Below, one piece after another: positions 10,712 through 23,821 of a DNA stretch of 37,418 bases (position 1 is the first letter of the stretch; each line of letters starts with the position of its first letter). The stretch is from an uncultured Faecalibacterium sp. GTDB taxonomy: Bacteria; Bacillota; Clostridia; Oscillospirales; Ruminococcaceae. Under the pieces are notes generated by a model. It was not told the DNA's origin. It saw nothing but the letters and a program-made list of their open reading frames with translations, and searched no databases. The stretch is from contig CAJFNF010000019.1 in assembly GCA_904394215.1 (NCBI GenBank), positions 1 to 37,418 of the forward strand, read 5' to 3'. The translations under genes were made by a program, and so were the position numbers.

Positions 10712-10787
<76 letters not shown>

Positions 10788-10955: not shown

Positions 10956-12227
10956 TCAGCCCTTCCGCATGGAGTCGAACATATCTTTGATCTCGTCGAT
11001 GCTATACCCCAGCGACCGCATGTTCCGTGCAAAGGTCAGGTAGTCCATCCCGCTGCTGGAAGCTGCCGTCCCCGAAGAGCCGGTGCTGCCCGAGCTCTTG
11101 CTGGAGCTGGAACTGCCCGAGCTCTTGCTGGAGCTGCCTGAGGAAGCGGAGCGGGCCGCAGCCTTTGCGCTGGCCGCGGCGGCCTCCTGCTGGGCCTGGG
11201 TCCGCTTGAGGTCCCATTCGCCCTGGGCGATGGCCAGCTTCTGGCTGGTGACCTGGTTGTCGAACCGCTGCTGTTCCAGGGCATCCTGGTACTGCTGGGC
11301 GGCCACCTGGTACTCGTACTGCTGCTGGTCCAGGCTGTCCTGCCGCAGCTGCTCCTGCATCTGCTGGTCCCAGGCGGTGTCGGCCCGGTCGGCCTCGTAG
11401 TCCCGGCGGTCGGCATACATGCCGTAGCCCGCCTGGGCCAGGGTGCTGAACAGGGAGCCCAGGCCGGTGGTGCCGCTGATGGCCAGCTGGACCGCATTGC
11501 CCACCATGCCCAGCACGCTCATGATGTTGTTGAAGCCCTGCTGGCGCCGGGCCGCCGCCGCCTCCTCCTGCTGGGTGTAATAGCCGTAGAGGGTGTCCAG
11601 GTTGGACAGGTAGTCGGTGTACTGGGCATAGTCCTGGGCATAGGCGTTCTGGTAGGCGTCCTGCTTCTGCCCCAGCTGGGTGTAGTAGTCGTCCAGCTGG
11701 CGGTAGTACAGATCCTGGGCGTTCTGTTCCTGGGTATTCAGGGCGTCGATCTGGTTCATCAGCAGGTCGCCCTCGCTGGTGTAACTGTCCAGGGCCAGGT
11801 TGTACAGGGTGGGGATCACGCTGTTCAGCCCGTTCATCTGCTGCTGGTAGGCCTGCTGGGCCGCGCTGGTGGCATAGCTGGAGCCATAGCCGCCGGTGAG
11901 GGATGCCGCCTGGGCGGCGGCGTCGGTGCTGGCGTCGTGGGCGTTCTGGCGGTAGGCCTGGGCGTACTGCTTGTACAGCGGGTCCGAGGCATAGTCATAG
12001 GAAAATTCTTCCCGGGACATGGCCTGGTTCAGCAGGCTGTTGATCTGTCCCTGATACTGGCTCTGGTAGGCATCGGGCCGGCTGTCCTGCCAGGCCTCCA
12101 GGTCGCTGGCCGCGCTGCTCACCGCGGCGCTGGGCTTGTACTGGGCCGAAGCCAGTGCCTGCTGCACCGCCGCCTTGCTCCCAAGGCCCTCGGTGCTGTA
12201 GGCGTCTTTTTTACGGTTGGTCGCCAT
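10956..12227 (-). CDS. Probable phage ejection (internal virion) protein
   Basis: A 423-residue protein rich in Gln, Ala, Tyr and Ser. Residues about 40-225 and 265-355 are long helical, coiled-coil-like segments with many Tyr-Gln repeats. Between them (about 228-265) lies a hydrophobic Gly-rich stretch (IMSVLGMVGNAVQLAISG) that could enter a membrane. A low-complexity Ser/Gly/Lys linker (about 366-395) precedes a conserved-looking tail (LTFARNMRSLGYSIDEIKDM). This composition and its place after the tail genes match podovirus ejection/pilot proteins that pass through the portal with DNA. No homologue is named; the call is by architecture and position. Confidence 0.6.
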   Translation of the reverse strand: MATNRKKDAYSTEGLGSKAAVQQALASAQYKPSAAVSSAASDLEAWQDSRPDAYQSQYQGQINSLLNQAMSREEFSYDYASDPLYKQYAQAYRQNAHDASTDAAAQAASLTGGYGSSYATSAAQQAYQQQMNGLNSVIPTLYNLALDSYTSEGDLLMNQIDALNTQEQNAQDLYYRQLDDYYTQLGQKQDAYQNAYAQDYAQYTDYLSNLDTLYGYYTQQEEAAAARRQQGFNNIMSVLGMVGNAVQLAISGTTGLGSLFSTLAQAGYGMYADRRDYEADRADTAWDQQMQEQLRQDSLDQQQYEYQVAAQQYQDALEQQRFDNQVTSQKLAIAQGEWDLKRTQAQQEAAAASAKAAARSASSGSSSKSSGSSSSSKSSGSTGSSGTAASSSGMDYLTFARNMRSLGYSIDEIKDMFDSMRKG

Positions 12228-12242
12228 CAGGCTCCCCCTTTC

Positions 12243-12434
12243 TCACTGTCCGTTCCCCTGGAGCTGGCTGCGGAGCCCCTCCGAGAGGTTGTCGGTGTCA
12301 ATGTTGGTCAATACGTACTGCAGTTGTTCCTGCATCTGGTAGAGGTAGTTGCGGATCACCCGCGCATCCTCCGGGTTCATGCTGCTGCTCAGCCGGGGCA
12401 GGCCCAGCTTGCTCAGCCCTGCAATGCTTGCCAT
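12243..12434 (-). CDS. Small phage virion-associated protein, unknown function
   Basis: A 63-residue protein, MASIAGLSKLGLPRLSSSMN followed by a helix (PEDARVIRNYLYQMQEQLQYVLTN) that looks able to form a coiled coil or oligomer, then a polar end. It lies between the nozzle-like and ejection-protein genes, with AAAGGAGC before the ATG. Its constant place next to ejection proteins in similar Clostridia clusters (from memory) suggests a small tail or ejection-complex part. No enzymatic motif is present. Confidence 0.7.
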   Translation of the reverse strand: MASIAGLSKLGLPRLSSSMNPEDARVIRNYLYQMQEQLQYVLTNIDTDNLSEGLRSQLQGNGQ

Positions 12435-12451
12435 AGGCAATGCTCCTTTCG

Positions 12452-14323
12452 TTACAGGCCGCCCTTGGCGTTGGCGAAGGTGCGGCTGATGCTGCGCAGG
12501 GTCACCTGGCCGGTGCCGTTGATCCGGAACCGGATGGTGTCGTGGCGCCGGGGCACCAGGGGAATGCACAGCTTTTCCTTTTCATCCCGGGCCAGGGCCG
12601 AGGCCAGCTTTTCCCAGGGGCCGCCGTCGCAGCTGGCCCACACTTCCAGCCAGGTGCCGGGCTGGGCGTCCAGCCGCAGCACCACCCTGGAGAGGTATTT
12701 GTCCTCGGTCTGGTCCAGGCCGATGTCCCCTGTCACCAGCTGGAAGGGGATTTCAGCCTCTGCCCGGCCGGTTTCCCCGGCCAGGACGGCGTCCTCGTCC
12801 CGGGCCGGCCCTGCCGCCCAGAGGGCGGTGCCGTCCCAGAGATAGAGCTGCCGGCCGCTGGACAGCATTTCCAGCTGTTCCCCGCTGCCGGGGTCCTCCT
12901 GGTTCCACAGGCCCCGCTCGGTGTCGTACACCAGCAGCCGGCCCTTTCCGCCGGCCCACAGGCACAGGTAGTACCGGCCGTCCAGCCAGCCCCCCACCGC
13001 CCGCTGGGCTTCGGCCAGGCCGCCGGCGTCCAGCACGCTGGACACCTTCACCGGCAGGCTGCCGTCCCAGGCCATCACCCCTTCGGGGGAGAGGTAATAC
13101 AGCGTCTCGTTGAGGACGCAGAGGCTGTCGGCGGCGTATTTGGCCACCCCGCGGCACCGCAGGGAGCTGAGCTGGAAGTCCGAGGGCTTGGTGCCGCACA
13201 GCTTGTGGAGGCTGTTTTCCTTGAAGAACAGCACGTAGCCCATGCAGGTGGCGGCGCCGGTAAAGTTGCCGTCGCTGCCCACCGTCACCGCATAGCTGTC
13301 GGCAGCGGTGTTCCGGTAGGAGAACCAGTTGGTGGGATCCCCCAGCTTGCAGGCGTAGATCTGGTTGTCCCCGCTGGCGCAGCCCCACACCCGGTTGTCG
13401 CACTCGGTGAGGAAATCCATGTCGGGCACCCGCCGGGTGCACTGAAGGGCCTTGTCCACCGTGTAGGACTGGGTAGTGTTGCCGTCCAGGCTGGTCCAGA
13501 CCGCCTGCCGGCCGGTCTGGACCAGCCGCCCGTAAAAGTGCTCGCCGCCGGGGGTCACCTGGACCATCAGCCAGTCCTCGCTGACCTTGTAGAGGATCTT
13601 CTCCCCGTCCAGGTCTTCGCAGACGTCGGCGGCGGCAGCGGCGCTGCCCTCCACCGTCACGGTGTCCCACTCTGCAAAGTCCTTGCCGATGCCCTCGGCG
13701 TTGATCCGGCAGTAGTCCAACGTCACCGAGGTCCACCGCTCCAGGGAGCTGCTGTAGATTTTCAGCACCCCGTCGGCGTTCCAGGGGCTGGAGGCGCTCT
13801 CCACCTTCAGGAACACCTGGCCGTCCTCGGGATTTTCCGGCTCGGTGCCGCCCCAGCTGGTGACGGTGTAGGTTTTGCCGTCGGCGTCGCAGGGCATCAT
13901 CTCCACGGCGTCGCCCCCGCCGCCCCAGGAAGCCCCCAGGGCGGTCAGGGTGTGATCGGCGGTGTCAAAAGCTTGTTTGTCGGGGAAGATCAGCACCTGG
14001 GTACCGATGCCCACCAGGGTTTTCCGCCCCGGTTCCAGCACCCCGCTGAGGGTCACCGGCTCTTCCCCGCTGTCGGGGGTGTAGGTCAGGTCCCCCTGCC
14101 GGATCAGCAGAAAGCCGTTCAGGTGGTACATCCCGTCCACGCCGGTGAGCTCCTGCAGCTTGCGGCGGGGCATCCGGGTGGACAAGGCCGGGAAATCCCG
14201 GCTGGAAAAGTTTTCTCCCGCCGCATACTCCGCCTCGGTGCATCCGAAGGTCTCGTTCAGCCCGCCAAAGACGCGGGTCTGTTTGCTGCTGTTTTTCAGC
14301 CCAGGCAGTTCAGGAAGATACAT
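12452..14323 (-). CDS. Probable phage tail nozzle / tail tube protein
   Basis: A 623-residue, beta-rich protein with no membrane segment. It shows repeated blade-like strand patterns with aromatic ends (YLCLWAGGKGRLLVYDTERG, LYLWDGTALWAAG, VLFFKENSLHKLCG), suggesting a beta-propeller as in the nozzle proteins of T7-like (gp12) and P22-like (gp10) podoviruses. Those cap the short tail and hold DNA in the capsid. It follows the head-tail adaptor gene, the usual position. AAAGGAGG precedes the ATG. The fold is inferred from patterning; a profile search or structure prediction would settle it. Confidence 0.6.
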   Translation of the reverse strand: MYLPELPGLKNSSKQTRVFGGLNETFGCTEAEYAAGENFSSRDFPALSTRMPRRKLQELTGVDGMYHLNGFLLIRQGDLTYTPDSGEEPVTLSGVLEPGRKTLVGIGTQVLIFPDKQAFDTADHTLTALGASWGGGGDAVEMMPCDADGKTYTVTSWGGTEPENPEDGQVFLKVESASSPWNADGVLKIYSSSLERWTSVTLDYCRINAEGIGKDFAEWDTVTVEGSAAAAADVCEDLDGEKILYKVSEDWLMVQVTPGGEHFYGRLVQTGRQAVWTSLDGNTTQSYTVDKALQCTRRVPDMDFLTECDNRVWGCASGDNQIYACKLGDPTNWFSYRNTAADSYAVTVGSDGNFTGAATCMGYVLFFKENSLHKLCGTKPSDFQLSSLRCRGVAKYAADSLCVLNETLYYLSPEGVMAWDGSLPVKVSSVLDAGGLAEAQRAVGGWLDGRYYLCLWAGGKGRLLVYDTERGLWNQEDPGSGEQLEMLSSGRQLYLWDGTALWAAGPARDEDAVLAGETGRAEAEIPFQLVTGDIGLDQTEDKYLSRVVLRLDAQPGTWLEVWASCDGGPWEKLASALARDEKEKLCIPLVPRRHDTIRFRINGTGQVTLRSISRTFANAKGGL

Positions 14324-14335
14324 GGAACCCCTCCT

Positions 14336-14716
14336 TTACCACCGCATCCGCCGGGGGGCGGATTTGAATCTGCGCCGCAGCCAGACTGCGAACTCCCCCA
14401 GCGTCGCGTTGCACCGGGCCATCTCGCCGCCGTAGCGGTCGTTTTCCCCCAGGGCCGCGTCCATCATGGCGCACAGATAGTGGGGGTATACCCCGTCAAA
14501 GGGGAAGGGCACCAGCAATTCTGCCCCGTCGGCCAGCTGGCCGTCCCAGAGCAGATCTGCCCCCACGCCGCCGAAGCCCTTGGCGCCGGCGGCCTCCACC
14601 AGCCGGACCCGGATCTCGCCGTCCTGCCGGCGCAGCCAGTTTTTCATGGTTTCTTCGTCCATCTCGCAGCCCGGGCGCAGTGCCCTGGCCTGACGGATCG
14701 CCTCGCCTGCCGTCAT
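14336..14716 (-). CDS. Probable head-tail adaptor (connector) protein
   Basis: A 126-residue, mostly helical protein. It begins MTAGEAIRQARALRPGCEMD, has a middle strand part (IRVRLVEAAG) and ends in two helices (YPHYLCAMMDAALGENDRYG, TLGEFAVWLRRRF). The helix order and the position between capsid and nozzle genes fit the P22 gp4 / HK97 gp6-type adaptor that docks beneath the portal. The ATG at 14716 was chosen because AAAGGAGG is 7 bases upstream; an in-frame TTG two codons earlier has poor spacing. The last residues are strongly basic (RRRFKSAPRRMRW), suiting contact with DNA or portal. Confidence 0.6.
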   Translation of the reverse strand: MTAGEAIRQARALRPGCEMDEETMKNWLRRQDGEIRVRLVEAAGAKGFGGVGADLLWDGQLADGAELLVPFPFDGVYPHYLCAMMDAALGENDRYGGEMARCNATLGEFAVWLRRRFKSAPRRMRW

Positions 14717-14783
14717 CTGCAAGCCTCCTTTCTTGGAAAAAAGCCCGGCACACCGGACCGAGGGCTGTGCCGGGCTGATTCAA

Positions 14784-14999
14784 TTACTTCCCTGCTGCGT
14801 CCTCTGCCGCTGCAATGCGGGCAGCGGTCAGATCATCCTGGCGCTGGCTGTGTTCCAGCACCTCGGCCACAGCCTTGGGCACTTCCACATCCACGCCCCG
14901 GCGGATCTTGTAGTTGACGCCGTTGACGCTGACAAACAGGTCGCCCTTGTAGCGGCCGTTGTCCTTGAACAGGCGGATGCGTACCTTGTCTTCACTCAT
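14784..14999 (-). CDS. Small capsid-associated phage protein
   Basis: A 71-residue protein: a beta-rich first half (DKVRIRLFKDNGRYKGDLFVSV) and a helical second half (VPKAVAEVLEHSQRQDDLTA). It lies directly after the major capsid gene with a strong GGAAAGGAG site. Genes of this size at this place often encode capsid decoration, head-fibre or head-completion parts. No specific family is recognised. Confidence 0.6.
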   Translation of the reverse strand: MSEDKVRIRLFKDNGRYKGDLFVSVNGVNYKIRRGVDVEVPKAVAEVLEHSQRQDDLTAARIAAAEDAAGK

Positions 15000-15020
15000 G
15001 GGCCTTGTCTCCTTTCCTCA

Positions 15021-16067
15021 TCAGTTGGCGGCTGCCGAAGCAGAATAGCTGGACAGGCTCTCGATGCGGACCATGTACTGTTCCACCAGCCGCTCGGCTG
15101 CCCGCATGCCCTTCCAGCCCACCGAAGCGCGCTGGTTCAGGGGGTCGTCGCCGTAGCCCAGCTGCTTGACGATGTGCTCCAGGCCGCCGCCTTCCAGCTC
15201 GGTGACGCCGTAGGCATGGGCGCCCAGCACCAGGGTGCCGAACACCGCATAATGGCCGCTGCCGCCGTCGGAGGGGCAGGTGTCATCCTTCCAGATCTTG
15301 GCCTCGCTGGTCTCGATGAAGCGGATGTTGCCCAGCTTGCCGATCTCGCCGCGGTACATGGCCTCGGGGTCAGCGTACTTGTGGACCTCGATCCACTCCT
15401 TGCTGGTCTTGAGGTCATAGGCTGCATAGGGATGGATGATGGCCACATAGCTGTCCCCCAGGGTATCGGCGTTCATGGCGCCCAGCTGGGCAGCCGCCTG
15501 GAAGAACAGTTTGGGGGTCAGCTTGCACTCCAGGGTCAGGTTGGCCCGGCTGGTGACGGGGGTCTCGTTGCCCTCTGCGTCCACCTTGGGGGCGTAGATC
15601 ACGTTGGTGCCGCCGGCCAGAACATCCCGGGTCAGGGTATCCAGGGTGCGGCCGGCCTGGCTGGCCAGGATCCGGGTGGCCTGGACCACGTTGTTGTCAA
15701 TGGCGGTCATCTGCAGCACGTCGGTCAGCGGGGTCCAGCCGCCGTACTGGTGCAGGTCGCTCTTGATGGTGGAGACGGTGAGGGTCTGGCCGTCGGGGGT
15801 AACGCCCTCGGTCAGAGGGGTGGTTGCCTTGGGCAGGCTGTCGTACTTGCGGAACTCGATGGTTTTGCCGCCGCCCACAGGCATGGGGTAGTAGTCGGCG
15901 AACTGGTCGTGGACCAGCCGGGGCTCTGCCTGGTCGATCAGACGCTTCTCATAGAAGGTCTTCATCTCGGCGGTCATGCCGGAAGCTGCGGTGGTGTTCT
16001 GCAGCTGGCTGGCGGGGTCGGCAAAGAACTGCAGGTCAAAGGGGAAATGATTCTGATTGTTGTTCAT
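15021..16067 (-). CDS. Major capsid protein, N4-gp56 type, with a Prp/L27-type cleavage site
   Basis: A 348-residue HK97-fold-type capsid protein of the N4-gp56 class common in Clostridia prophages (GRTLDTLTRDVLAGGTNVIY, YVAIIHPYAAYDLKT, YAVFGTLVLGAHAYGVTELEG). Residues 10-16 read FDLQFFA, followed by D17. This is the same signal as the ribosomal protein L27 leader (LNLQFFA), which the protease Prp cuts after the second Phe. Cleavage here would remove 15 residues and leave a 333-residue mature protein starting Ala16. The likely protease is encoded in the next gene upstream, as an N-terminal domain of the scaffold. Residues 1-9 are Asn/Gln-rich and lack a fold of their own. Confidence 0.88.
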   Translation of the reverse strand: MNNNQNHFPFDLQFFADPASQLQNTTAASGMTAEMKTFYEKRLIDQAEPRLVHDQFADYYPMPVGGGKTIEFRKYDSLPKATTPLTEGVTPDGQTLTVSTIKSDLHQYGGWTPLTDVLQMTAIDNNVVQATRILASQAGRTLDTLTRDVLAGGTNVIYAPKVDAEGNETPVTSRANLTLECKLTPKLFFQAAAQLGAMNADTLGDSYVAIIHPYAAYDLKTSKEWIEVHKYADPEAMYRGEIGKLGNIRFIETSEAKIWKDDTCPSDGGSGHYAVFGTLVLGAHAYGVTELEGGGLEHIVKQLGYGDDPLNQRASVGWKGMRAAERLVEQYMVRIESLSSYSASAAAN

Positions 16068-16124
16068 AGATCGTTCCTTTCTTTATGGTGCCATGCCGGC
16101 CGAAGCCGGCGCGTATCCTGAATC

Positions 16125-17069
16125 TTACAGCCGGATCCTGGCCCCGTGGAGGGCCTCCCGCTCGATGGCCTCCCGCTGGGCGCGGCTCATCCGGCTCACA
16201 TCGGGGGCGGTGGTCATGGCGCCCTGGCTGTGGATGCCGTTTTCAGCGGGGCGTGCCCCCCGCTCCTGGACCCGGTTGATGACACCCTGTTCCACGGTGC
16301 GGGCGGTGCCCTCCATCAGCTTGTCGTAGAAGGCCGCATGATAGGCCTCCTGCATCCGCATCCCGGGCATCCGCATCATCCGGCGCATGGCGGGGTTTTT
16401 CAGGGCCTCCTTCAGGGAGAACTTGGGGTCGCCCTTGCGCATTTCGGCCTCTTCCCGGGCCCACTGGTTGTGCAGGCGCAGGATGAACCGTCCCACCTCG
16501 CCGATGCCCAGCATGGGCTCCCGGCGGGGCTGGGTGTTCTGTTCCAGTGTTTCCCGGGGCGGGGCCGGAGGCATCTCTTCTTTGGATTTGTCCCGCTTTT
16601 TGGCCGAGGGCAGGGTGCCTTCCGCCCTGGCCTGGCGCTCCTGTTCCCGGCTGAGGGAAGGGCCCTTGCGGGCCTTTTTGCCCTTTTGGGCAAACAGCTG
16701 CAGGTCGATCATCCCCTCTTCGCCGCGGCTGCTGGTATCCGCAAACCGCAGGTTGTCGGGGTAGCGCTCGGCCAGCAGGGCCAGGCCGGTTTTGACCAGC
16801 TCAAAGCTGCCGTTGATCCGCTGGTCCTCCCGGGGGTCGGCCCCGGGATGGGCGGTGATCACCACCCGGGGCCCTTCGGGGCCATCGGATGCGGTGCACT
16901 CTGCCTGGTCCATCTCGGCTGCCATCCAGATCAGCGCCTGGGTCAGGATGCTGGCCCCGGCGCAGACGATGTCCTGCCCGGCGGGAGCATAGCCGGCATG
17001 GCCCTTGACTTCCAGCCGCCGGGTCACCCCGGCGGGGCCGTCCAGCTCGCTGCACATTGCGTGGATCAT
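16125..17069 (-). CDS. Prp-like cysteine protease fused to phage capsid scaffold protein
   Basis: A 314-residue fusion. Residues 1-115 match the Prp (YsxB/DUF464) family: GHA with His24 and GQDIVCAGAS with Cys36, the same 12-residue His-Cys spacing as the S. aureus Prp dyad (His22/Cys34), then FELVKTGLALLAERYPDNLRF as the closing helix and strand. Residues 120-127 read MIDLQLFA, then QKGKKARKG, closely like the L27 N terminus. From about 128 the protein is a charged, Met/Arg-rich helical scaffold ending MSRAQREAIEREALHGARIR, the basic capsid-binding tail. Self-cleavage after Phe126 would release a 126-residue protease and a 188-residue scaffold. AAGGAGG precedes the start at 17069. It lies between portal and capsid genes, the normal protease/scaffold position. 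Confidence 0.85.
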   Translation of the reverse strand: MIHAMCSELDGPAGVTRRLEVKGHAGYAPAGQDIVCAGASILTQALIWMAAEMDQAECTASDGPEGPRVVITAHPGADPREDQRINGSFELVKTGLALLAERYPDNLRFADTSSRGEEGMIDLQLFAQKGKKARKGPSLSREQERQARAEGTLPSAKKRDKSKEEMPPAPPRETLEQNTQPRREPMLGIGEVGRFILRLHNQWAREEAEMRKGDPKFSLKEALKNPAMRRMMRMPGMRMQEAYHAAFYDKLMEGTARTVEQGVINRVQERGARPAENGIHSQGAMTTAPDVSRMSRAQREAIEREALHGARIRL

Positions 17070-17076
17070 CCTTTGT

Positions 17077-18903
17077 TTACCTCCTTGTATTGGTGTTCAT
17101 GGCCCTGCGGGCCGCGGTGTCAGGGCTGGGGGCCTGGGGCACCCTGGTTTTCTGGCCCGCCGTCTGCCGGCCGGCTGCCTTCTGCCCCGCCGCCTTCTGG
17201 CGGCTGAAGGTCCGGGCGGCCTGCACGGTCTGGGTCAGACGGGCCAGCTGCTGCTGGGCCAGCTGAAGCTGCTTGGCCAGGGTGCCGTTCTGCTGGACCC
17301 GCTGGCGGACCTTTTCGATCCCCTCAAAGTCCATCATTTCCAGGGCAGCCAGGGCGGCGTCGGCGTTGGCAGGGTTAAAGAATCCCAGCTGATAGCATTC
17401 CTTGGCGGTCTCGTTCTGGCTCAGGCGGCTGAAGGTGGACTTTTTGGCCGCAGAGATGGTGATGTCAAACACCGGCTCCCGGCTGCCCAGCTCCACGCCG
17501 CCCACGCTGGCCACAGGCACCGGCCGCAGGGCGGCGCCGCTGAACTGGACAAAGACGTTCTGGCCCTGCTGGCCGGTGATCCGGAACACCCGGTCCTCGT
17601 CGTAGAACTGGCGCATCAGGTCGATGACCAGATAGCACTCCTTGGCGAAGGCCCGGTAGGAGCTCTTGAGCATGTCCCGGGACAGCTTGCTGCCCGCCTC
17701 CTGGAGGGCTGCGATGGCCGAAGCCGCCGTGACGCCGCCCGAGGTGCCGCCCTGGCTCATATCCCGGTTGCCGCTGATCTCCTTCAGCTCGTCCACCCGG
17801 CTGTTGCGGTAGGTGATGGAGCTGCCCTGGAGCCCGGCGGTCTGGATCTGGTGGAAGCTGTCGCTGTTGAGCCGGCCGGTGACATGGACGATGTCCCGGC
17901 TCAGGTCGGCCAGTTCCTCCTCGTTGACCCCGGCGCCGTCGCTGAGGACGTACCGCTGTTTGGAGGCCAGCAGGACGTTTTCGTCCATGGCCTGGTTCAT
18001 CTTGTCGATGGAGTTCTGGCAGTCCTTCATCACGTCGATCAGGCCGAAGCCGGCGGGGCTGTCCTCTTCCTGGAACAGCACGTCAAAGACGAAGGGGTAT
18101 TTGCCGTGGTCATAGAAACCCCGCTGGGCCAGCCGGGGGTCGTTCTCGCTGGCGTAGAGGACCACGCCGTTGCAGAATTTGCAGTAGTGGACCAGCTCCT
18201 TGCCGCCGGGGCCCGGCTTTTTGTAGTACCAGTCCACCACCACGCTCTTGTCGGTGGTGTCGATGCTGTCATCGTGGATGTACCGGGCCGCGTCAATGGT
18301 GCCGCCGGTGCGGCCCCGCAGCTGGGGATACCGGGCCGCCAGCTGGTCCGAATCCTCCAGACTCAGGCTGAAAAAGTGGGGGCTGTCCTGGATGTCCATC
18401 ACCCCCGGCTCCCAGTAGAGCATCAGCAGGTTCATGGACCGGATGGCGATCTCCCCCATGCCGCCCCGGGCGGCGGGGTCCCAGAAGATACCCTTGACGC
18501 CGGTGCCCTGTTTCAGCTTCCGCCACCAGCTGTCGGAATAGACCTGCTCGTAGTCAGCCTGTTCCAGCACCACCGGCAGGATGCTGGACAGGGTGCGGGC
18601 GGTGGCCTCGTCGTCGGCGGCCCGGGGCAGGACGTTGGGCTCGGGGTAGTTGTCCATGGCCTCGGCGTGCTTGCTGGCGATGGAGTTGAACAGCCACCCG
18701 CTGGAAGGCTGGGGCTTGCCCTCCATCATCCGGTTTTTGTACTGTTTCCAGTGGGCCATCCGGAACCACAGCTCGTTGTCGATGAGCCGCCGGTCCAGTG
18801 CCGCCTTGCCGGATTTGTACTTGTGCAGGATGCGCTCCGCCTCCGCGGCCTGTTCAGGGCCGATGACCGGCGCAGGCTGCATCTGAATTTCCTGTTCTTG
18901 CAT
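17077..18903 (-). CDS. Phage portal protein
   Basis: A 608-residue protein in the position and size of a podovirus portal (P22-like class). The N-terminal and middle parts show portal features: WFRMAHWKQYKNR, YSDSWWRKLKQGTGVKGIFWDP (wing region) and IDKMNQAMDENVLLASKQRY, with stem and crown helices later (ALAALEMMDFEGIEKVRQRV). The last about 60 residues are a Gln-rich coil followed by a low-complexity basic tail with AAGQK/AAGRQ/TAGQK repeats. It forms the dodecameric channel for DNA entry. It starts 9 bases after the large terminase gene. Confidence 0.85.
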   Translation of the reverse strand: MQEQEIQMQPAPVIGPEQAAEAERILHKYKSGKAALDRRLIDNELWFRMAHWKQYKNRMMEGKPQPSSGWLFNSIASKHAEAMDNYPEPNVLPRAADDEATARTLSSILPVVLEQADYEQVYSDSWWRKLKQGTGVKGIFWDPAARGGMGEIAIRSMNLLMLYWEPGVMDIQDSPHFFSLSLEDSDQLAARYPQLRGRTGGTIDAARYIHDDSIDTTDKSVVVDWYYKKPGPGGKELVHYCKFCNGVVLYASENDPRLAQRGFYDHGKYPFVFDVLFQEEDSPAGFGLIDVMKDCQNSIDKMNQAMDENVLLASKQRYVLSDGAGVNEEELADLSRDIVHVTGRLNSDSFHQIQTAGLQGSSITYRNSRVDELKEISGNRDMSQGGTSGGVTAASAIAALQEAGSKLSRDMLKSSYRAFAKECYLVIDLMRQFYDEDRVFRITGQQGQNVFVQFSGAALRPVPVASVGGVELGSREPVFDITISAAKKSTFSRLSQNETAKECYQLGFFNPANADAALAALEMMDFEGIEKVRQRVQQNGTLAKQLQLAQQQLARLTQTVQAARTFSRQKAAGQKAAGRQTAGQKTRVPQAPSPDTAARRAMNTNTRR

Positions 18904-18912
18904 GGTTTCACC

Positions 18913-20358
18913 TCATATTCTGTAAAATGCTGCGTGTCTGCGGGGCCGCAGGTCCAGCGGGTCGTCGGGCAGCGGGGCGGGAGATGTCCGGGCCGGCGGG
19001 CTGATGGGGTTTTCCATCAGCACATACCGGCACTCGTCGTAGATGTGGTCCTCCTGGCGGGAGTCCACATCCTCCACGTTGCTCTCGTCGTACACCAGGG
19101 AGGGGATGGTGCGGATGAAATGCTTGCAGGTGCGGAACACCTGGAACATGGGCCGCCCCTCGGAATCAAAAGCCAGACGGTAGTGCATCTGCATCTTGCC
19201 GGCCAGGCGGGTGTTGTCCGCCGCCGACCAGAAGATGCCGTTGGGGGGCCGCTCCATCATGGCGGCAATGCTCTCGCCCCGGCTCTCGTCAAAGATGGCC
19301 GGGTCGGCCACCCCCCGGATGGTCCGCCCCCGGAGCACCGGGTCGTTCTGTTCTGCCTCCCGGATCTTCCGGGCCTGCTCCACCGGGTCCATCCGCAGGC
19401 CCTCATTGGGCCGGCCGGTGCATCCGTAGAGCTCCTTGATCCGGTAAATCCGCCCGTCCTCGTCCACCGCGTACCACCCCACCGAAAAAGGCCTGGAATA
19501 GCCGAAGTCGTACCCCCGCCAGATCCGCCAGTGTTTGGGGATCTCGAAGGGTTCCACCACATGGGTCCATCGCTGGTCCCGGTAGTGATCGGGGTCGTTG
19601 CGCCACTCGGTGAACACCTGCCCCGAAAAGCTGTCCCAGCTGCCGTAGAGCAGGGCCTGTTTTTCCGCCTCGGGCAGGGCGGCCAGGCTGGCCAGATAGT
19701 CGGGATCGTTGGCCAGCAGGGCCGGGTTGTCAAAGACGCTGGAGGGGATGAACACCCGGGCCCGGGTATAGGTCCGGGTGGTGCCGTCGGGCATCCGCAC
19801 CTGGTACTCCTCCCGGATGGGGGTGCCGGGGGGCGCCGGTGTGATGAACCGCTCCTTGACCCAGCCGTGGCCCACCCCGCCGGGGTTGGTGGTGGCCCGC
19901 ATATAGACCCGGGTGCCGGGGCCGGTGGGCCGGTTGCGGCTCATCATGTAGCTGTACTCCTCCCATTCAAAGTGGGTCAGCTCGTCAAACCCGATGAAGT
20001 CGTAGGCCTTGCCCTGGTAGTTGGTGCGGTCCTTGGTGTACTGCATCGACCCGAAGTAGATCTTGGCCCCGCTGGGGAAAATCCAGACGTGGGCGGTGGC
20101 ATTGTACTGGGCCCCCGGGAACGCCCGGCGGTAGTAGTTCATGCTCTTGTCCACCAGGTCGCTGAGCTGGGGGAAGGTTTTCCGCAGGATCAGCCCCCGG
20201 TAGTGGGGAATCTCCACCTGCCGCAAAGCCTCGATCACCAAAGCGTCGCTCTTTCCTCCGCCGGCCGCCCCGCCGTACAGAGCTTCCGGCTCGCTGCGCT
20301 CCATAAAGGCCCGCTGCCGGGGCTGGGGCTGCCAGATGATGGGAGCCTGCCGGTTCAT
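18913..20358 (-). CDS. Phage terminase large subunit
   Basis: A 481-residue packaging motor. Walker A GGAAGGGKS (residues 29-37, Lys36) and Walker B FIGFDE (121-126, Asp125, Glu126) form the ATPase; a coupling motif ATTNPGG is at 155-161. The C-terminal RNase H-like nuclease has GYDFG (Asp284), ADPAIFDES (Asp352) and EDHIYDECRY (Asp437/Asp441). All catalytic residues are present, so the motor appears functional. Its start overlaps the stop of the upstream small gene (ATGA). It powers DNA packaging into the procapsid through the portal. Confidence 0.95.
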   Translation of the reverse strand: MNRQAPIIWQPQPRQRAFMERSEPEALYGGAAGGGKSDALVIEALRQVEIPHYRGLILRKTFPQLSDLVDKSMNYYRRAFPGAQYNATAHVWIFPSGAKIYFGSMQYTKDRTNYQGKAYDFIGFDELTHFEWEEYSYMMSRNRPTGPGTRVYMRATTNPGGVGHGWVKERFITPAPPGTPIREEYQVRMPDGTTRTYTRARVFIPSSVFDNPALLANDPDYLASLAALPEAEKQALLYGSWDSFSGQVFTEWRNDPDHYRDQRWTHVVEPFEIPKHWRIWRGYDFGYSRPFSVGWYAVDEDGRIYRIKELYGCTGRPNEGLRMDPVEQARKIREAEQNDPVLRGRTIRGVADPAIFDESRGESIAAMMERPPNGIFWSAADNTRLAGKMQMHYRLAFDSEGRPMFQVFRTCKHFIRTIPSLVYDESNVEDVDSRQEDHIYDECRYVLMENPISPPARTSPAPLPDDPLDLRPRRHAAFYRI

Positions 20359-20630
20359 GTTGGTGCATCCTCCTTTCCCGGTGCCACCGGGGGCAGCAGC
20401 ACCACGCCGTATTCGGCGCTGTCGCCGCCCCCGCTCTGCTCGCTCAGGCTCTTGGCCACGGCTGCCAGGTCCTTGAGCACCGCAGTGATCTCCTTCAGCG
20501 CCTTCATGTCGCCGCTGCCCTGGGCCTGGCGCCGGGCGTCCAGCGCCCGGGCTTCCTGCACCAGCAGCCCGCTGAGAAGATCGGTGGTCCGCTGTAAGTC
20601 TGTCAGGCTGCCGTTCTTTTTCTTTGCCAT
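20355..20630 (-). CDS. Small protein before TerL, possible terminase small subunit
   Basis: A 91-residue helical protein, MAKKKNGSLTDLQRTTDLLS then a coiled-coil-like stretch (VQEARALDARRQAQ, MKALKEITAVLKDLAAVAKSL) and a disordered Pro-rich end. The place directly upstream of, and overlapping, the large terminase gene is that of the small subunit, and an oligomerising coil fits. No helix-turn-helix is evident, so the assignment is positional. The ATG at 20630 has AAAGGAG 7 bases upstream; a longer reading from 20732 lacks such a site. Confidence 0.55.
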   Translation of the reverse strand: MAKKKNGSLTDLQRTTDLLSGLLVQEARALDARRQAQGSGDMKALKEITAVLKDLAAVAKSLSEQSGGGDSAEYGVVLLPPVAPGKEDAPT

Positions 20631-20715
20631 CCTTTCGCTCCTTTCCGCCGCTGTCCGGCCGCCTGTCAACATCCTATCACCGGCCTGTGGGTTTCCCCAG
20701 TGTGTCCTTCCGGCC

Positions 20716-20738
20716 CCGGTTTTTGGCCCCAAAACCGG
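20716..20738. repeat. Palindromic hairpin upstream of the phage cassette
   Basis: CCGGTTTT and AAAACCGG arms around TGGCCCC. It is close to the cassette's 5' edge; it may terminate read-through or mark the boundary. Confidence 0.5.
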
Positions 20739-20872: not shown

Positions 20873-21490
20873 TTACTTGTTGGGAGCAATCAGGTCGATG
20901 CCCTGCTGCAGGGTTTCGGCGTCGATGGCGCCGGTGGCCCGTGCCACCGCATATCCATCGGCATTGATGAAATAGGTGGTGGGCAGCGAATAGGCCCCGT
21001 AGGTGAGGGCGGCGTCCGAGTCGGTGTCATACAGCACCGGGAAGGTGAACCCCTGCTGTGCAATGAAGGCAGAAGCGCTGTCCACCGTCTCCCGGCTGCC
21101 GTCGGTCATGTTGATCATCAGAAACTGGACTTCCTCCCCCAGCTCCTGGTATTTGTCCTCGAAATCGGGCATTTCCATCTGGCAGGGCCCGCACCAGCTG
21201 GCCCAGAAATTGACCACCAGGGGCTTGCCGGTGTAGTCGTACAGCTGGACCGGGTTGCCATCCTTATCATAGACGGTGAAGTCCGGCGCCGGCACCAGTT
21301 CGGGATCCGCAGACTCTGCGGCCTCTCCGCTCTCTGCCGCCTGCCCGCTGTCCGCCTGGCTCTGGGGGGATTCCACCGTCAGCTGGTTGTGTTCCAGCCC
21401 CTGGCCCAGCCGCCCATAGAGGGTGTAGGCCCCTCCCAGCAGGAGGACAAAGGCCAGGGCCAGCACAAATACGATTCGCTTCTTGTCCAT
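20873..21490 (-). CDS. TlpA/ResA-like membrane-anchored thioredoxin
   Basis: A 205-residue protein: an N-terminal membrane anchor (residues 6-26), an acidic Ser/Ala/Glu linker (about 40-65) and an extracytoplasmic thioredoxin domain with WASWCGPCQMEMP (Cys100, Cys103). The cis-proline loop follows in YSLPTTYFI. It would be the external thiol reductant or oxidoreductase fed by the neighbouring CcdA. It starts 10 bases after the ccdA-like gene and closes the operon before a terminator. In Clostridia such proteins are proposed to keep surface thiols reduced or help cytochrome/sulfoxide repair; the target here is unknown. Confidence 0.9.
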   Translation of the reverse strand: MDKKRIVFVLALAFVLLLGGAYTLYGRLGQGLEHNQLTVESPQSQADSGQAAESGEAAESADPELVPAPDFTVYDKDGNPVQLYDYTGKPLVVNFWASWCGPCQMEMPDFEDKYQELGEEVQFLMINMTDGSRETVDSASAFIAQQGFTFPVLYDTDSDAALTYGAYSLPTTYFINADGYAVARATGAIDAETLQQGIDLIAPNK

Positions 21491-21500
21491 GGGAGCCTCC

Positions 21501-22163
21501 TCAGCTCAGCAGGGCCAGCAGACGGCCCAGGGTGCCGGTGGCCATCAGGATGCCGATGAACACCAGCAGCCCGCCCGAAATGGCGTTGATGACCCCGTAG
21601 TGGCTTTTGATCCAGTCAAAGGCCGATTTCAGATAGTCGATCAGGACGGCGCTGAGGATAAAGGGAATCCCCAGCCCCAGGGAATAGGCCAGCAGCATCA
21701 GGACGCCCTGGAGCACATGGCCCTGCTGGGATGCCAGGGCCAGCGCCGACCCCAGGAAGGCCCCCACGCAGGGGGTCCAGCCCACCGAAAAGATGACGCC
21801 GAACACTGCCGCCTGGAAAAAGCCCATGTCGCTGGTATCCACCTGATGGCGGCTGCCCCGGAACAGTTCCAGCCGGAACACCCCCAAAAAGTGGAGGCCA
21901 AAAAAGATCACCACCAGCCCCGACACCAGGTTGACGGCGGTCTGGTATTCCCGCAGGAAACCGCCCACCGTCCCGGCCAGGGCTCCCAGGGCCACAAACA
22001 CCAGGGTAAAGCCGCTCACAAAGCCCAGGGCCCCGGTGAGGGTTTTCCGGACGGTGCGCTCCCCGCCCCCTGCAAAGTAGGAGATGTAGATGGGGAGCAT
22101 GGGCAAAAGGCAGGGGGAAATAAAGGTGATGATCCCTTCCAGAAAGGAGATTACATACTGCAT
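21501..22163 (-). CDS. CcdA-type thiol-disulfide transmembrane transporter
   Basis: A 220-residue protein with six hydrophobic segments and the two CcdA/DsbD-beta cysteines: Cys18 in ISPCLLPMLP and Cys132 in GWTPCVGAFLG. It accepts electrons from cytoplasmic thioredoxin and passes them across the membrane to an external thioredoxin-like protein, encoded just downstream. Its start overlaps the end of the small CPTGSC membrane protein gene by 13 bases. The full chain (thioredoxin, reductase, CcdA, TlpA) is present in this operon. Confidence 0.92.
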   Translation of the reverse strand: MQYVISFLEGIITFISPCLLPMLPIYISYFAGGGERTVRKTLTGALGFVSGFTLVFVALGALAGTVGGFLREYQTAVNLVSGLVVIFFGLHFLGVFRLELFRGSRHQVDTSDMGFFQAAVFGVIFSVGWTPCVGAFLGSALALASQQGHVLQGVLMLLAYSLGLGIPFILSAVLIDYLKSAFDWIKSHYGVINAISGGLLVFIGILMATGTLGRLLALLS

Positions 22164-22363
22164 GAGCCGTCACACCCCGTTCCGAACACACCGGACAGCA
22201 GCCACCCCACCAGGCCCATATAGGCCATGGAGGTGAAGGGGCTGGAGGTGATGATGCAGCTGCCGGTGGGGCATCCCACCGCCAGATAGTAGACCAGCCC
22301 AACCAGGGCGCCACCCAGGGTAAAGAGGGCGGGTTTCATCCATTTTCCGGCTTTTTCCTTCAT
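22151..22363 (-). CDS. Small membrane protein with two CxxxxC/CxxxC motifs (DUF6132-like)
   Basis: A 70-residue protein with two hydrophobic segments (about 11-30 and 42-62). Cys31 and Cys36 lie in GCPTGSCIITSSPF at the end of the first, and Cys64 and Cys68 in GTGCDGSCSM at the very C terminus. The CPTGSC block matches what I recall of DUF6132, short proteins found beside thioredoxin-like genes. The ATG at 22363 was chosen over a GTG because AGGAGG is then 8 bases upstream. Its position between TrxB and CcdA suggests a role in thiol relay across the membrane; that is inference. Confidence 0.75.
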   Translation of the reverse strand: MKEKAGKWMKPALFTLGGALVGLVYYLAVGCPTGSCIITSSPFTSMAYMGLVGWLLSGVFGTGCDGSCSM

Positions 22364-22364
22364 A

Positions 22365-23294
22365 TCAGGCACCTCCTGCCAGATACTCCTCCGCCATGTG
22401 GACTGCCACGGCGCCGTCGGCCACAGCGGTCACCACCTGGCGCAGGGGTTTGGTCCGCACGTCCCCCACGGCGAAGACGCCGGGGATGTTGGTGCGGGTG
22501 GTCTCGTCGGCAATGATGTAGCCGCTGCGGTCCAGCTCCAGCTGGCCTTCCACCAGTTCGGTGGCAGGCTTGCGGCCGATGCTGACAAACACGGCGTCAC
22601 AGGGCACTTCGGTCTCGGCGCCGGTGACGGTGTCCTTCAGCCGGACCCCGGTCAGTTCTTCTCCATGGAGGAGGGCCGACACGGTGCTGTTCCAGCGGAA
22701 TTCCAGGTTTTGGGTTTTCATCAGGGGCTCGTGATAGACCTTGGTGGCCCGCAGGGTGTCCCTGCGGTGGACCAGGATCACTTTTTGGGCGATGCGGCTG
22801 AGGATCAATGCGTCTGCGGCGGCGGAGTTGCCTCCGCCCACCACCACCACGGTTTTGCCCTTGTACCGCATCCCGTCGCAGGCGGCGCAGTAGGCCACCC
22901 CGCGGCCTACCAGGGCCGCCTCATCCTGGATGCCCAGCTCCCGGGGGTTGGCCCCGGTGGCAAAGGCCACGGTCTTGGCCAGGAAGGTGCCCTCGCTGGT
23001 GTCCAGCACCTTGGGCGAAGCGTTCAGGTCCAGTTTGGTCACCTCGGCGTACTCGGTGCGGGCGCCGAATGCTTCGGCCTGCCGCTGCATCTGCTCCGCC
23101 AGGGTAAAGCCGTCGATCCCCTCCTCAAAGCCGGGATAGTTGTCGATCTGCTCGGTCAGGGCCATCTGACCGCCGGCCGACAGCTTTTCCAGCACCAGGG
23201 TGGTCAGCCCGGCCCGGGCTGCATAGAGGGCCGCGGTATAGCCTGCCGGCCCGCCGCCCACAACGATCATATCGTACACCGGACGCTCTGCCAT
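22365..23294 (-). CDS. trxB: Thioredoxin-disulfide reductase
   Basis: A 309-residue flavoprotein: FAD-binding GGGPAG (residues 13-18), the redox disulfide CAAC (136-139) followed by DG, the NAD(P)H-binding GGGNSA (about 154-159) with HRRDTLRA, and the late FAD contact GVFAVGDVR. It reduces thioredoxin with NAD(P)H in the cytoplasm; HRRDTLRA favours NADPH. The ATG at 23294 has AGGAGG 8 bases upstream; an in-frame GTG three codons earlier touches the site. It lies 25 bases after the thioredoxin gene and ends 1 base before the DUF6132-like start. Confidence 0.95.
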   Translation of the reverse strand: MAERPVYDMIVVGGGPAGYTAALYAARAGLTTLVLEKLSAGGQMALTEQIDNYPGFEEGIDGFTLAEQMQRQAEAFGARTEYAEVTKLDLNASPKVLDTSEGTFLAKTVAFATGANPRELGIQDEAALVGRGVAYCAACDGMRYKGKTVVVVGGGNSAAADALILSRIAQKVILVHRRDTLRATKVYHEPLMKTQNLEFRWNSTVSALLHGEELTGVRLKDTVTGAETEVPCDAVFVSIGRKPATELVEGQLELDRSGYIIADETTRTNIPGVFAVGDVRTKPLRQVVTAVADGAVAVHMAEEYLAGGA

Positions 23295-23319
23295 GGTGTG
23301 CACCTCCTTGTGTTCCTTG

Positions 23320-23643
23320 TTACTTTGCCAGGGCTCCCTGGATGAACTGCTCGATGGCTGCCTTGGAGCCGGGGCCTACCACAGAATCCACCATCCTGCC
23401 CTCCTTGTAGAGGACCAGGGTGGGGATGGAGGTCACCTTGGCGTCCTTGGCCAGCTGGGGCACGTCGTCCACATTGACCTTGGCCACCACCAGCTCTTCC
23501 CCGTACTTGTCGGCAATCTGCTCGTAAGCGGGGCCCAGCCGGCGGCAATGGCCGCACCAGGGAGCCCAGAAGTCCACCAGCACCGGCTTTGCGTCCTTGG
23601 CCATTTCGTTGAACTGTTCCAGATTGAGATTGATGGCTGCCAT
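23320..23643 (-). CDS. trxA: Thioredoxin with a WCGHC active site
   Basis: A 107-residue thioredoxin. The active site is APWCGHCRRL (Cys30, Cys33), and the cis-proline is in VTSIPTLVLYKEG. The central GH pair is typical of protein disulfide isomerases, whereas classical bacterial thioredoxins have GP. A GH pair raises the redox potential, so this thioredoxin may be less strongly reducing or suited to the CcdA relay. It is first in the five-gene redox operon, with GGAAAGGAG before the ATG. An upstream in-frame extension lacks a ribosome-binding site. Confidence 0.93.
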   Translation of the reverse strand: MAAINLNLEQFNEMAKDAKPVLVDFWAPWCGHCRRLGPAYEQIADKYGEELVVAKVNVDDVPQLAKDAKVTSIPTLVLYKEGRMVDSVVGPGSKAAIEQFIQGALAK

Positions 23644-23703
23644 GTTGGTCAGCTCCTTTCCTGTTTCTATCAAAAAGTGTGATTTTGTGTGGTTGATGGT
23701 ATC

Positions 23704-23709
23704 AGTATA
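23704..23709 (-). promoter_or_regulatory. Possible -10 box of the thioredoxin operon
   Basis: TATACT on the minus strand, 61 bases before the thioredoxin start. No good -35 box at 16-18 bases. Confidence 0.35.
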
Positions 23710-23821
23710 CCCGAAAAAAATGCCGCGTTCTGTGACGGCATCACCAATTTCTGGATACAACAGAAAGTTTCACTTTTTTACCCTCCGTTCCGTAGAGGGC
23801 CCCGATTCTACGATCCGTTTG

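Follow-up and report, generated by a model that had tools for sequence, protein, structure and literature searches.

The head-gene cassette and its surroundings

The DNA analyzed here (the window) is a stretch of 37,418 nucleotides from an uncultured Faecalibacterium sp. (contig CAJFNF010000019.1). Positions 10956-20732 are occupied by a cassette with a possible terminase small subunit (TerS), the terminase large subunit (TerL), the portal protein, a Prp-scaffold gene, the capsid protein and five further genes. The features are, in the order of transcription:

20355-20732, minus strand: possible terminase small subunit (by position only; no match above curated cut-off)
18913-20358, minus strand: terminase large subunit (PF03237, E 3.2e-16; phrog_979, E 3e-64)
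17077-18903, minus strand: portal protein (PF16510, E 1.8e-30; phrog_156, E 1.1e-79)
16734-17069, minus strand: Prp protease domain, residues 1-112 of the fusion, with His24 and Cys36 (PF04327, PDB structure matches, model confidence)
16689-16712, minus strand: junction motif MIDLQLF/A, residues 120-127 of the fusion (26-row alignment and model confidence)
16125-16688, minus strand: variable linker (residues 128-188), helical scaffold-like part (residues 189-314) and stop codon of the fusion (phrog_13908, model)
15021-16067, minus strand: major capsid protein (N4-gp56 family) with leader FDLQFF/A (TIGR04387, E 6e-93; phrog_1357, E 6.8e-88)
14784-14999, minus strand: conserved small cassette protein, 71 aa (phrog_15239, E 2.1e-23; present in the genus copies)
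14336-14722, minus strand: conserved cassette protein, 128 aa (phrog_12105, unknown function, E 5.9e-17)
12452-14323, minus strand: internal virion/short-tail-type protein, 623 aa (phrog_511, internal virion protein, E 3.7e-41)
12243-12569, minus strand: conserved small cassette protein (no family match; present in the genus copies)
10956-12227, minus strand: last cassette gene, 423 aa (no solid family match; found in the genus copies in the same order)

Judging from its position, the 128-aa protein is possibly a head-tail connector. The flanks of the cassette are of host type, with a thioredoxin system and an M16-type peptidase (named from their translations) and a tRNA-Thr (10712-10787), and the ten cassette ORFs scanned gave no match to an integrase or replication family. 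The gene order is kept around the Prp matches in 31 regions of the genus, often near the same host genes, in a count that tolerates early contig ends, two second copies in which TerS was not matched and one region in which the 128-aa gene was not. A TlpA-CcdA-thioredoxin-type cluster (20873-23760) directly adjoins the cassette in the window; it was present in two of the 31 other genus regions (L077, L078), where the flanks comprise only a few kb.

A gene transfer agent of Faecalibacterium, FpGTA I, was published in January 2026 (Borodovich et al., 2026; PMC12946183). In the cited parts of that paper it is described as an element of about 10 kb with ten genes, near-universal in the genus, whose operon includes a possible TerS and a head scaffolding gene. 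Its section 9 reports particles roughly 40 nm in size that contain some 9 kb of DNA, and mass spectrometry detected capsid and portal protein in particles of F. prausnitzii ATCC 27766 (PMC12946183, cited parts). There the authors present FpGTA I as the first gene transfer agent of the human gut and leave open which other genes take part in maturation; the main text contains neither the word Prp nor the word protease. The cassette agrees with this account, as far as cited, in size, number of genes, the set of possible TerS, TerL, portal, scaffold and capsid genes, and near-universal presence. It differs in that a Prp protease and two sites are added here where the paper lists head scaffolding. 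The cassette therefore fits FpGTA I rather than an ordinary phage, a match made to the published description and not to sequences. The first-pass annotation of this DNA, made from the sequence alone, had proposed a phage-borne setting.

The N-terminal domain of the fusion protein is a Prp-type protease

Translation of the ORF at 16125-17069 (minus strand) gave a protein of 314 aa containing His24, Cys36 and, at residues 120-132, MIDLQLFAQKGKK, exactly as the first-pass annotation had described. Peptidase_Prp (PF04327) matches residues 14-107 (E 8.1e-15, 55.3 bits versus a curated cut-off of 27), and residues 17-109 match phrog_4478, "peptidase" (E 3e-13). His24 and Cys36, which we take to be the catalytic pair of Prp, are separated by a spacing of 12 and are invariant in all 26 aligned fused rows. 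Besides the window, this alignment has rows from three viral loci and from 22 of the other 31 genus regions, with three near-copies, a broken copy and five unfused copies left out; a few of its rows begin some residues late.

A profile of 26 relatives was compared with PDB sequences, which yielded four matches with E below 0.001, namely 4peo/7kld and 7jvs, both S. aureus Prp, and 2g0i and 2idl, both hypothetical proteins. The 12 best PDB structure matches of the predicted model (target TM 0.70-0.77) comprise five S. aureus Prp chains (7kld, 7jvs, 4peo), one of them with substrate peptide, and seven Streptococcus chains (2idl, 2g0i, 2g0j), which are filed as unknown function and are presumably Prp homologues. 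The six best structure matches among viral models are named cysteine protease or YsxB-like, and no other prohead protease fold appeared among the families and best structures listed for the ORF. Model confidence is 81-92 over residues 1-110 except for the block 21-30, which contains His24 (67). Over the whole fusion, mean pLDDT is 71 and pTM 0.38, and because of this low pTM the arrangement of the domains in the model is unreliable. Both the profile search and the structural comparison with S. aureus Prp had been proposed as checks in the first-pass annotation, and its assignment of a Prp-like domain came through both.

By its sequence the N-terminal domain of the 314-aa protein is a Prp, and proteolysis at F/A is predicted. 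It shares with host Prp (YsxB, DUF464, MEROPS C108; PMC9405229, cited parts) the fold, the His/Cys pair and an F/A site after LQ; unlike the host enzyme it is joined to a scaffold and does not lie beside L21/L27, and L27 of its host is leaderless. It does not reach the NCBIfam equivalog cut-offs for ribosomal L27-processing Prp and is not encoded between rplU and rpmA. The dN/dS values, calculated by a simple Nei-Gojobori method for five pairs with the window as reference, are 0.14-0.38 for the Prp domain, 0.36-0.83 for the linker and 0.09-0.25 for the scaffold part. The cassette Prp is thus under purifying selection.

An L27-type motif joins the protease to a scaffold-like part

The predicted cut at the junction lies between Phe126 (16694-16692) and Ala127 (16691-16689). 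Met120, Leu123, Gln124 and Phe126 are invariant in the 26 aligned fused rows, and D122, L125 and A127 are kept in at least 90% of them. With a model confidence below 50 for residues 118-137, the motif is predicted to lie in a flexible, poorly ordered linker. A strict form of the motif, [LIVMF][DN]LQ[LMF]F[AG], arose in four of 200,000 shuffles of the fusion protein.

Residues 200-313 match phrog_13908, for which no function is given (E 1.4e-16), and the predicted structure has long helices at residues 189-272. A stand-alone homologue of this part (L177) starts at the leader. Position, helices and the head scaffolding annotation in the FpGTA I operon (PMC12946183, cited parts) point to a scaffold-like role for residues 189-314, as the first-pass annotation had supposed when it described a Prp joined to its scaffold.

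The capsid protein carries a second predicted site

A second LQxF-type site, overlooked in the first-pass annotation, lies at the N terminus of the major capsid protein, which starts with MNNNQNHFPFDLQFFADP and contains MNNNQNHFPFDLQFF/A. The leader motif covers residues 10-16 (window 16040-16020), and the cut is predicted after Phe15. When the rule was relaxed (L, I or M; Q; any residue; F or M; then A, G or S), the capsid leader was found in all 32 cassette copies of the genus, so that self-release would be only half of the job of the protease. For the first 40 aa of the capsid protein, none of 200,000 shuffles produced the strict motif.

In the stop-to-stop frames of at least 100 aa from 31 genus regions (552,675 residues) the strict motif occurs 43 times: 25 times in Prp ORFs, 17 times in the capsid protein and once in a stand-alone scaffold, and nowhere else. 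At the DNA level, a degenerate pattern was found at three places in the host assembly of the window, two of them in the cassette, versus two for the reversed control. A count of three versus two in one genome proves nothing alone, and the pattern was therefore rejected as single-genome evidence and kept only genus-wide. Over 31 genus genomes it occurs at 64 places versus seven for the reversed control, and 42 of the 64 lie within 2.5 kb of a cassette Prp. Seven of the other places were inspected: one is a short frame outside the cassette in the window's host genome (G000, contig 8, 20240-20256; L277), which reads MQDLQLFAEKG, and the rest are unlike N-terminal leaders.

Most copies in the genus are fused

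Of 31 genus genomes, 30 gave a PF04327 match, and two of these gave a second, for a total of 32; G010, which is 80% complete, gave no Prp match. Every one of the 32 matches sits in the cassette. Intact fusions, defined as an open frame of at least 310 aa, make up 26 of the 32 copies, one copy is broken and five are unfused. The break is found in a single-contig genome (G028, L080, minus strand), where a frame change splits the Prp-scaffold gene; the LQLFA motif stands twice in the Prp frame of this copy. In the unfused copies (G019, G020, G021, G024, G026) a separate Prp is followed by a separate scaffold, whose frame carries LQLFG or LQQFA in four of the five; in the fifth (L091, G024) the nearest sequence is degenerate, LHRFG. 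Because five copies are unfused and one fused copy is broken, the fusion is not indispensable.

Two genomes contain second, more divergent fused cassettes elsewhere in the genome (L068 in G012, L074 in G016), with flanks common to both. L213, which lies on a 39-kb viral contig that also encodes an integrase, has exactly the same Prp domain as L068. In a named collection of 39 loci, the 20 fused relatives (L154-L173) all bear the name Faecalibacterium, and the other 19 loci are unfused.

The cassette Prp is the only Prp detected in the genus

An L27 match was obtained for 27 of the 31 genomes of the genus. In all 24 readable loci it reads MAHKKGVGSTK, without a leader, and adjoins L21. Of the three other loci, one has stop codons, one is truncated where its contig ends, and in the third, from the genome of the window, L27 is merged with L21. 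This last is a single in-frame ORF of 161 aa (L007, 1480-1965, minus strand, G000 contig 33), likely an assembly collapse; in the other readable genus loci L21 and L27 are separate, and in G023 the contig ends inside L21.

A ribosomal prp was not found in any of the 31 genus genomes, and no Prp was detected outside the cassette in the host assembly of the window (93% complete). Given the leaderless L27 and the lack of a ribosomal prp in the genomes searched, the cassette Prp is the sole Prp detected. Assembly gaps do not account for the absence, because eight of the 31 genomes are single contigs and each has one Prp match. Among 14 control genomes a Prp match was obtained in three, none of them E. 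coli.

The wider family was represented by 118 genomes with at least 90% completeness, taken from a larger group. Prp is present in 81 of them and lies within 700 bases of L27 in 78 of the 81; the remaining three are G068, with Prp and L27 on different contigs, and two Faecalibacterium. Among the best 30 of 116 L27 loci, the 19 with a leader all come from Prp-bearing genomes and the 11 without from genomes lacking a Prp match. At the 30 best-scoring family Prp loci, a leader-bearing L27 was found in 28 and no readable L27 in two. In the wider family Prp and the L27 leader thus co-occur, and Faecalibacterium, its cassette Prp excepted, groups with the genomes that have neither.

At several Bacillota loci prp closely precedes an L27 frame with M-DLQLFA, which resembles the junction in the gene transfer agent. 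At L176 (465-838) leader and L27 continue in the reading frame of prp beyond its stop codon, so that the two genes are one stop codon apart.

Fused and separate Prp genes in viral contigs and phages

A relative is encoded on 144 viral contigs, and the best 80 of them were analyzed. A fused ORF is present in 22 of these 80 (19 distinct Prp stretches), and all 22 have an LQxF-type motif after the Prp domain; 20 of the 22 have a leader on a downstream ORF. The 58 unfused Prp ORFs (49 distinct) never contain the motif, and 44 of them have a leader on a downstream ORF. As a control for the loose neighbour rule, 8 of 453 opposite-strand ORFs matched. An integrase was found in 3 of 11 fused viral contigs searched, those of L208, L211 and L213; the contig records may be fragments. 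In L208 the chain matches phrog_4478 (residues 14-109) and then phrog_13908 (residues 133-485, profile positions 4-292 of 294); on these profile matches two whole families follow one another in the chain and meet at the leader.

Eight phage records with their own Prp, chosen from 16 and 26 matching records, were inspected for leaders by eye. LQxF followed by A or D lies near the start of the scaffold, or of the ORF in its place, in all eight, and LQxF followed by A, D or S on the capsid ORF, or the ORF in its place, in seven; the second ORF of DO134P1 has GLQVFT. Phages commonly encode a Prp close to scaffold and capsid genes that have LQxF leaders, and such a Prp is annotated. The phages with a stand-alone Prp (phiFL3A gp45, BL3 gp6, PLgT-1, Fontainebleau, Krappator27 and others) resemble the cassette in having Prp in the head cluster and a leader on the scaffold and usually the capsid protein, but their genes are separate and unfused. 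The major tail protein (phrog_238) of two siphophage-type contigs that encode a Prp of their own (L237, 7512-8027; L248, 7633-8157) carries an LQxFA leader and, by this sequence, is likely a third Prp substrate.

A quick Prp tree contains a split with 96% SH-aLRT that parts 13 host rows from all 45 fused rows; it was calculated without bootstrap from few columns, and 49 of its 114 inner branches are open. With host and fused rows on opposite sides of this split, a recent capture of prp and leader from the host L21-prp-L27 operon is unlikely. The fusion may have arisen once or more than once: the tree needs three changes of the fused label, of which the starred branches force only one.

Proposed mechanism and alternatives

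We propose, with a probability of roughly 0.8, that the Prp cysteine protease is joined in one chain to the scaffold-like protein of FpGTA I, is carried with it into the procapsid, and cuts both the junction after Phe126 and the capsid protein after Phe15. The scaffold part would bring the protease into the growing procapsid, where Prp would cut its own linker, freeing the scaffold with Ala127 as new N terminus, and would remove the capsid leader. The fusion would fix the dose and place of the protease and make maturation independent of a host without ribosomal Prp and L27 leader. A related system is known from S. aureus phage 80alpha, where host Prp cuts capsid and scaffold proteins (PMC5744158, cited parts). 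There too scaffold and capsid protein carry the leader and are cut between F and A, but the enzyme is that of the host, whereas in the cassette the protease lies within the scaffold chain. According to the same parts of that paper, 80alpha with uncleavable scaffold or capsid protein is still viable, and assembly requires an intact scaffold N terminus and not its cleavage (PMC5744158). Cleavage in the cassette is therefore possibly dispensable.

The gene could also be read as two nested genes. In phage lambda, protease and scaffold come from one gene, C/Nu3, and the scaffold is made by internal initiation. The cassette resembles this in its single gene for both, while lambda uses another protease family together with internal initiation. 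Applied here, scaffold would be translated from Met120 and the fused form would be a minority protease carrier. The invariance of Met120 in all 26 rows makes a second product by internal initiation possible in the genus, the scaffold frame of unfused relatives has the same motif near its start, and anti-Shine-Dalgarno pairing before Met120 is mildly above average (mean rank 0.20, 24 loci). That pairing, however, is far weaker than at the true start (mean -6.75 versus -10.96 kcal/mol), and the window itself has a poor value of -2.1 (rank 0.77). Moreover, 6 of 18 further fused viral loci (some of them near-copies) keep the motif although the 14 codons that precede it include no ATG, GTG or TTG, which argues against internal initiation at those loci. 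Neither the pairing nor the start-codon scan of other fused loci thus supports an internal start at Met120, and we regard nested genes as unlikely. Quite unlikely, too, is that Prp acts only in trans on the capsid protein, with the junction an uncut fossil leader of a once separate scaffold. Stand-alone scaffolds do have a leader near the N terminus, and 80alpha survives without scaffold cleavage (PMC5744158, cited parts), but the motif is kept in all 22 fused viral loci and in all 26 aligned rows, beside a fast-changing linker and across fused groups that a poorly resolved tree separates.

Two further explanations concern the activity of the domain itself. The lack of an integrase or replication match in the ten scanned ORFs and the broken G028 copy would suit a decaying prophage remnant with an inactive protease; set against the intact fusion in 26 of 32 copies, the purifying selection, the conserved gene order and the reported particles (PMC12946183, cited parts), this is very improbable. 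That the sites are cut by a protease of the host, with the fused Prp domain serving only as structure, is hardly credible: this is how 80alpha works in S. aureus (PMC5744158, cited parts), but of the 30 genus genomes with Prp, 28 have a single match and the other two have their second in a second cassette, L27 lacks a leader and His24 and Cys36 are invariant, evidence that concerns host proteases of the Prp type.

Returning to the proposed self-cleaving fusion, the interpretation in the first-pass annotation was largely right, but the setting is a gene transfer agent. Its suggestion of novelty holds for the fusion: among the titles and abstracts listed in searches of open-licence papers none describes a Prp-scaffold fusion, and these searches likewise gave no account of it as the protease of the gene transfer agent, of the two-site logic or of a host that lacks ribosomal Prp. 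It does not hold for phage-borne Prp, which is common and annotated in the eight records above, so that the novelty lies in the fusion and its host context. Cutting of capsid and scaffold by Prp, phage-encoded Prp and FpGTA I are known; the fusion is new.

These results name a likely maturation protease for FpGTA I, the first gene transfer agent of the human gut according to its authors (PMC12946183, cited parts), and provide testable handles in Cys36, Phe126/Ala127 and Phe15/Ala16. We consider it rather probable that a self-releasing protease-scaffold polyprotein built on Prp, a protease of ribosome maturation, arose, perhaps repeatedly, in phages of gut bacteria and was kept throughout the genus as the maturation enzyme of a gene transfer agent, so that the sole cellular Prp would serve DNA-packaging particles in cells that no longer use Prp for their ribosomes. 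With Prp apparently uncoupled from ribosomes here, the finding is also relevant to the proposal of Prp as a drug target and to the origins of capsid proteases.
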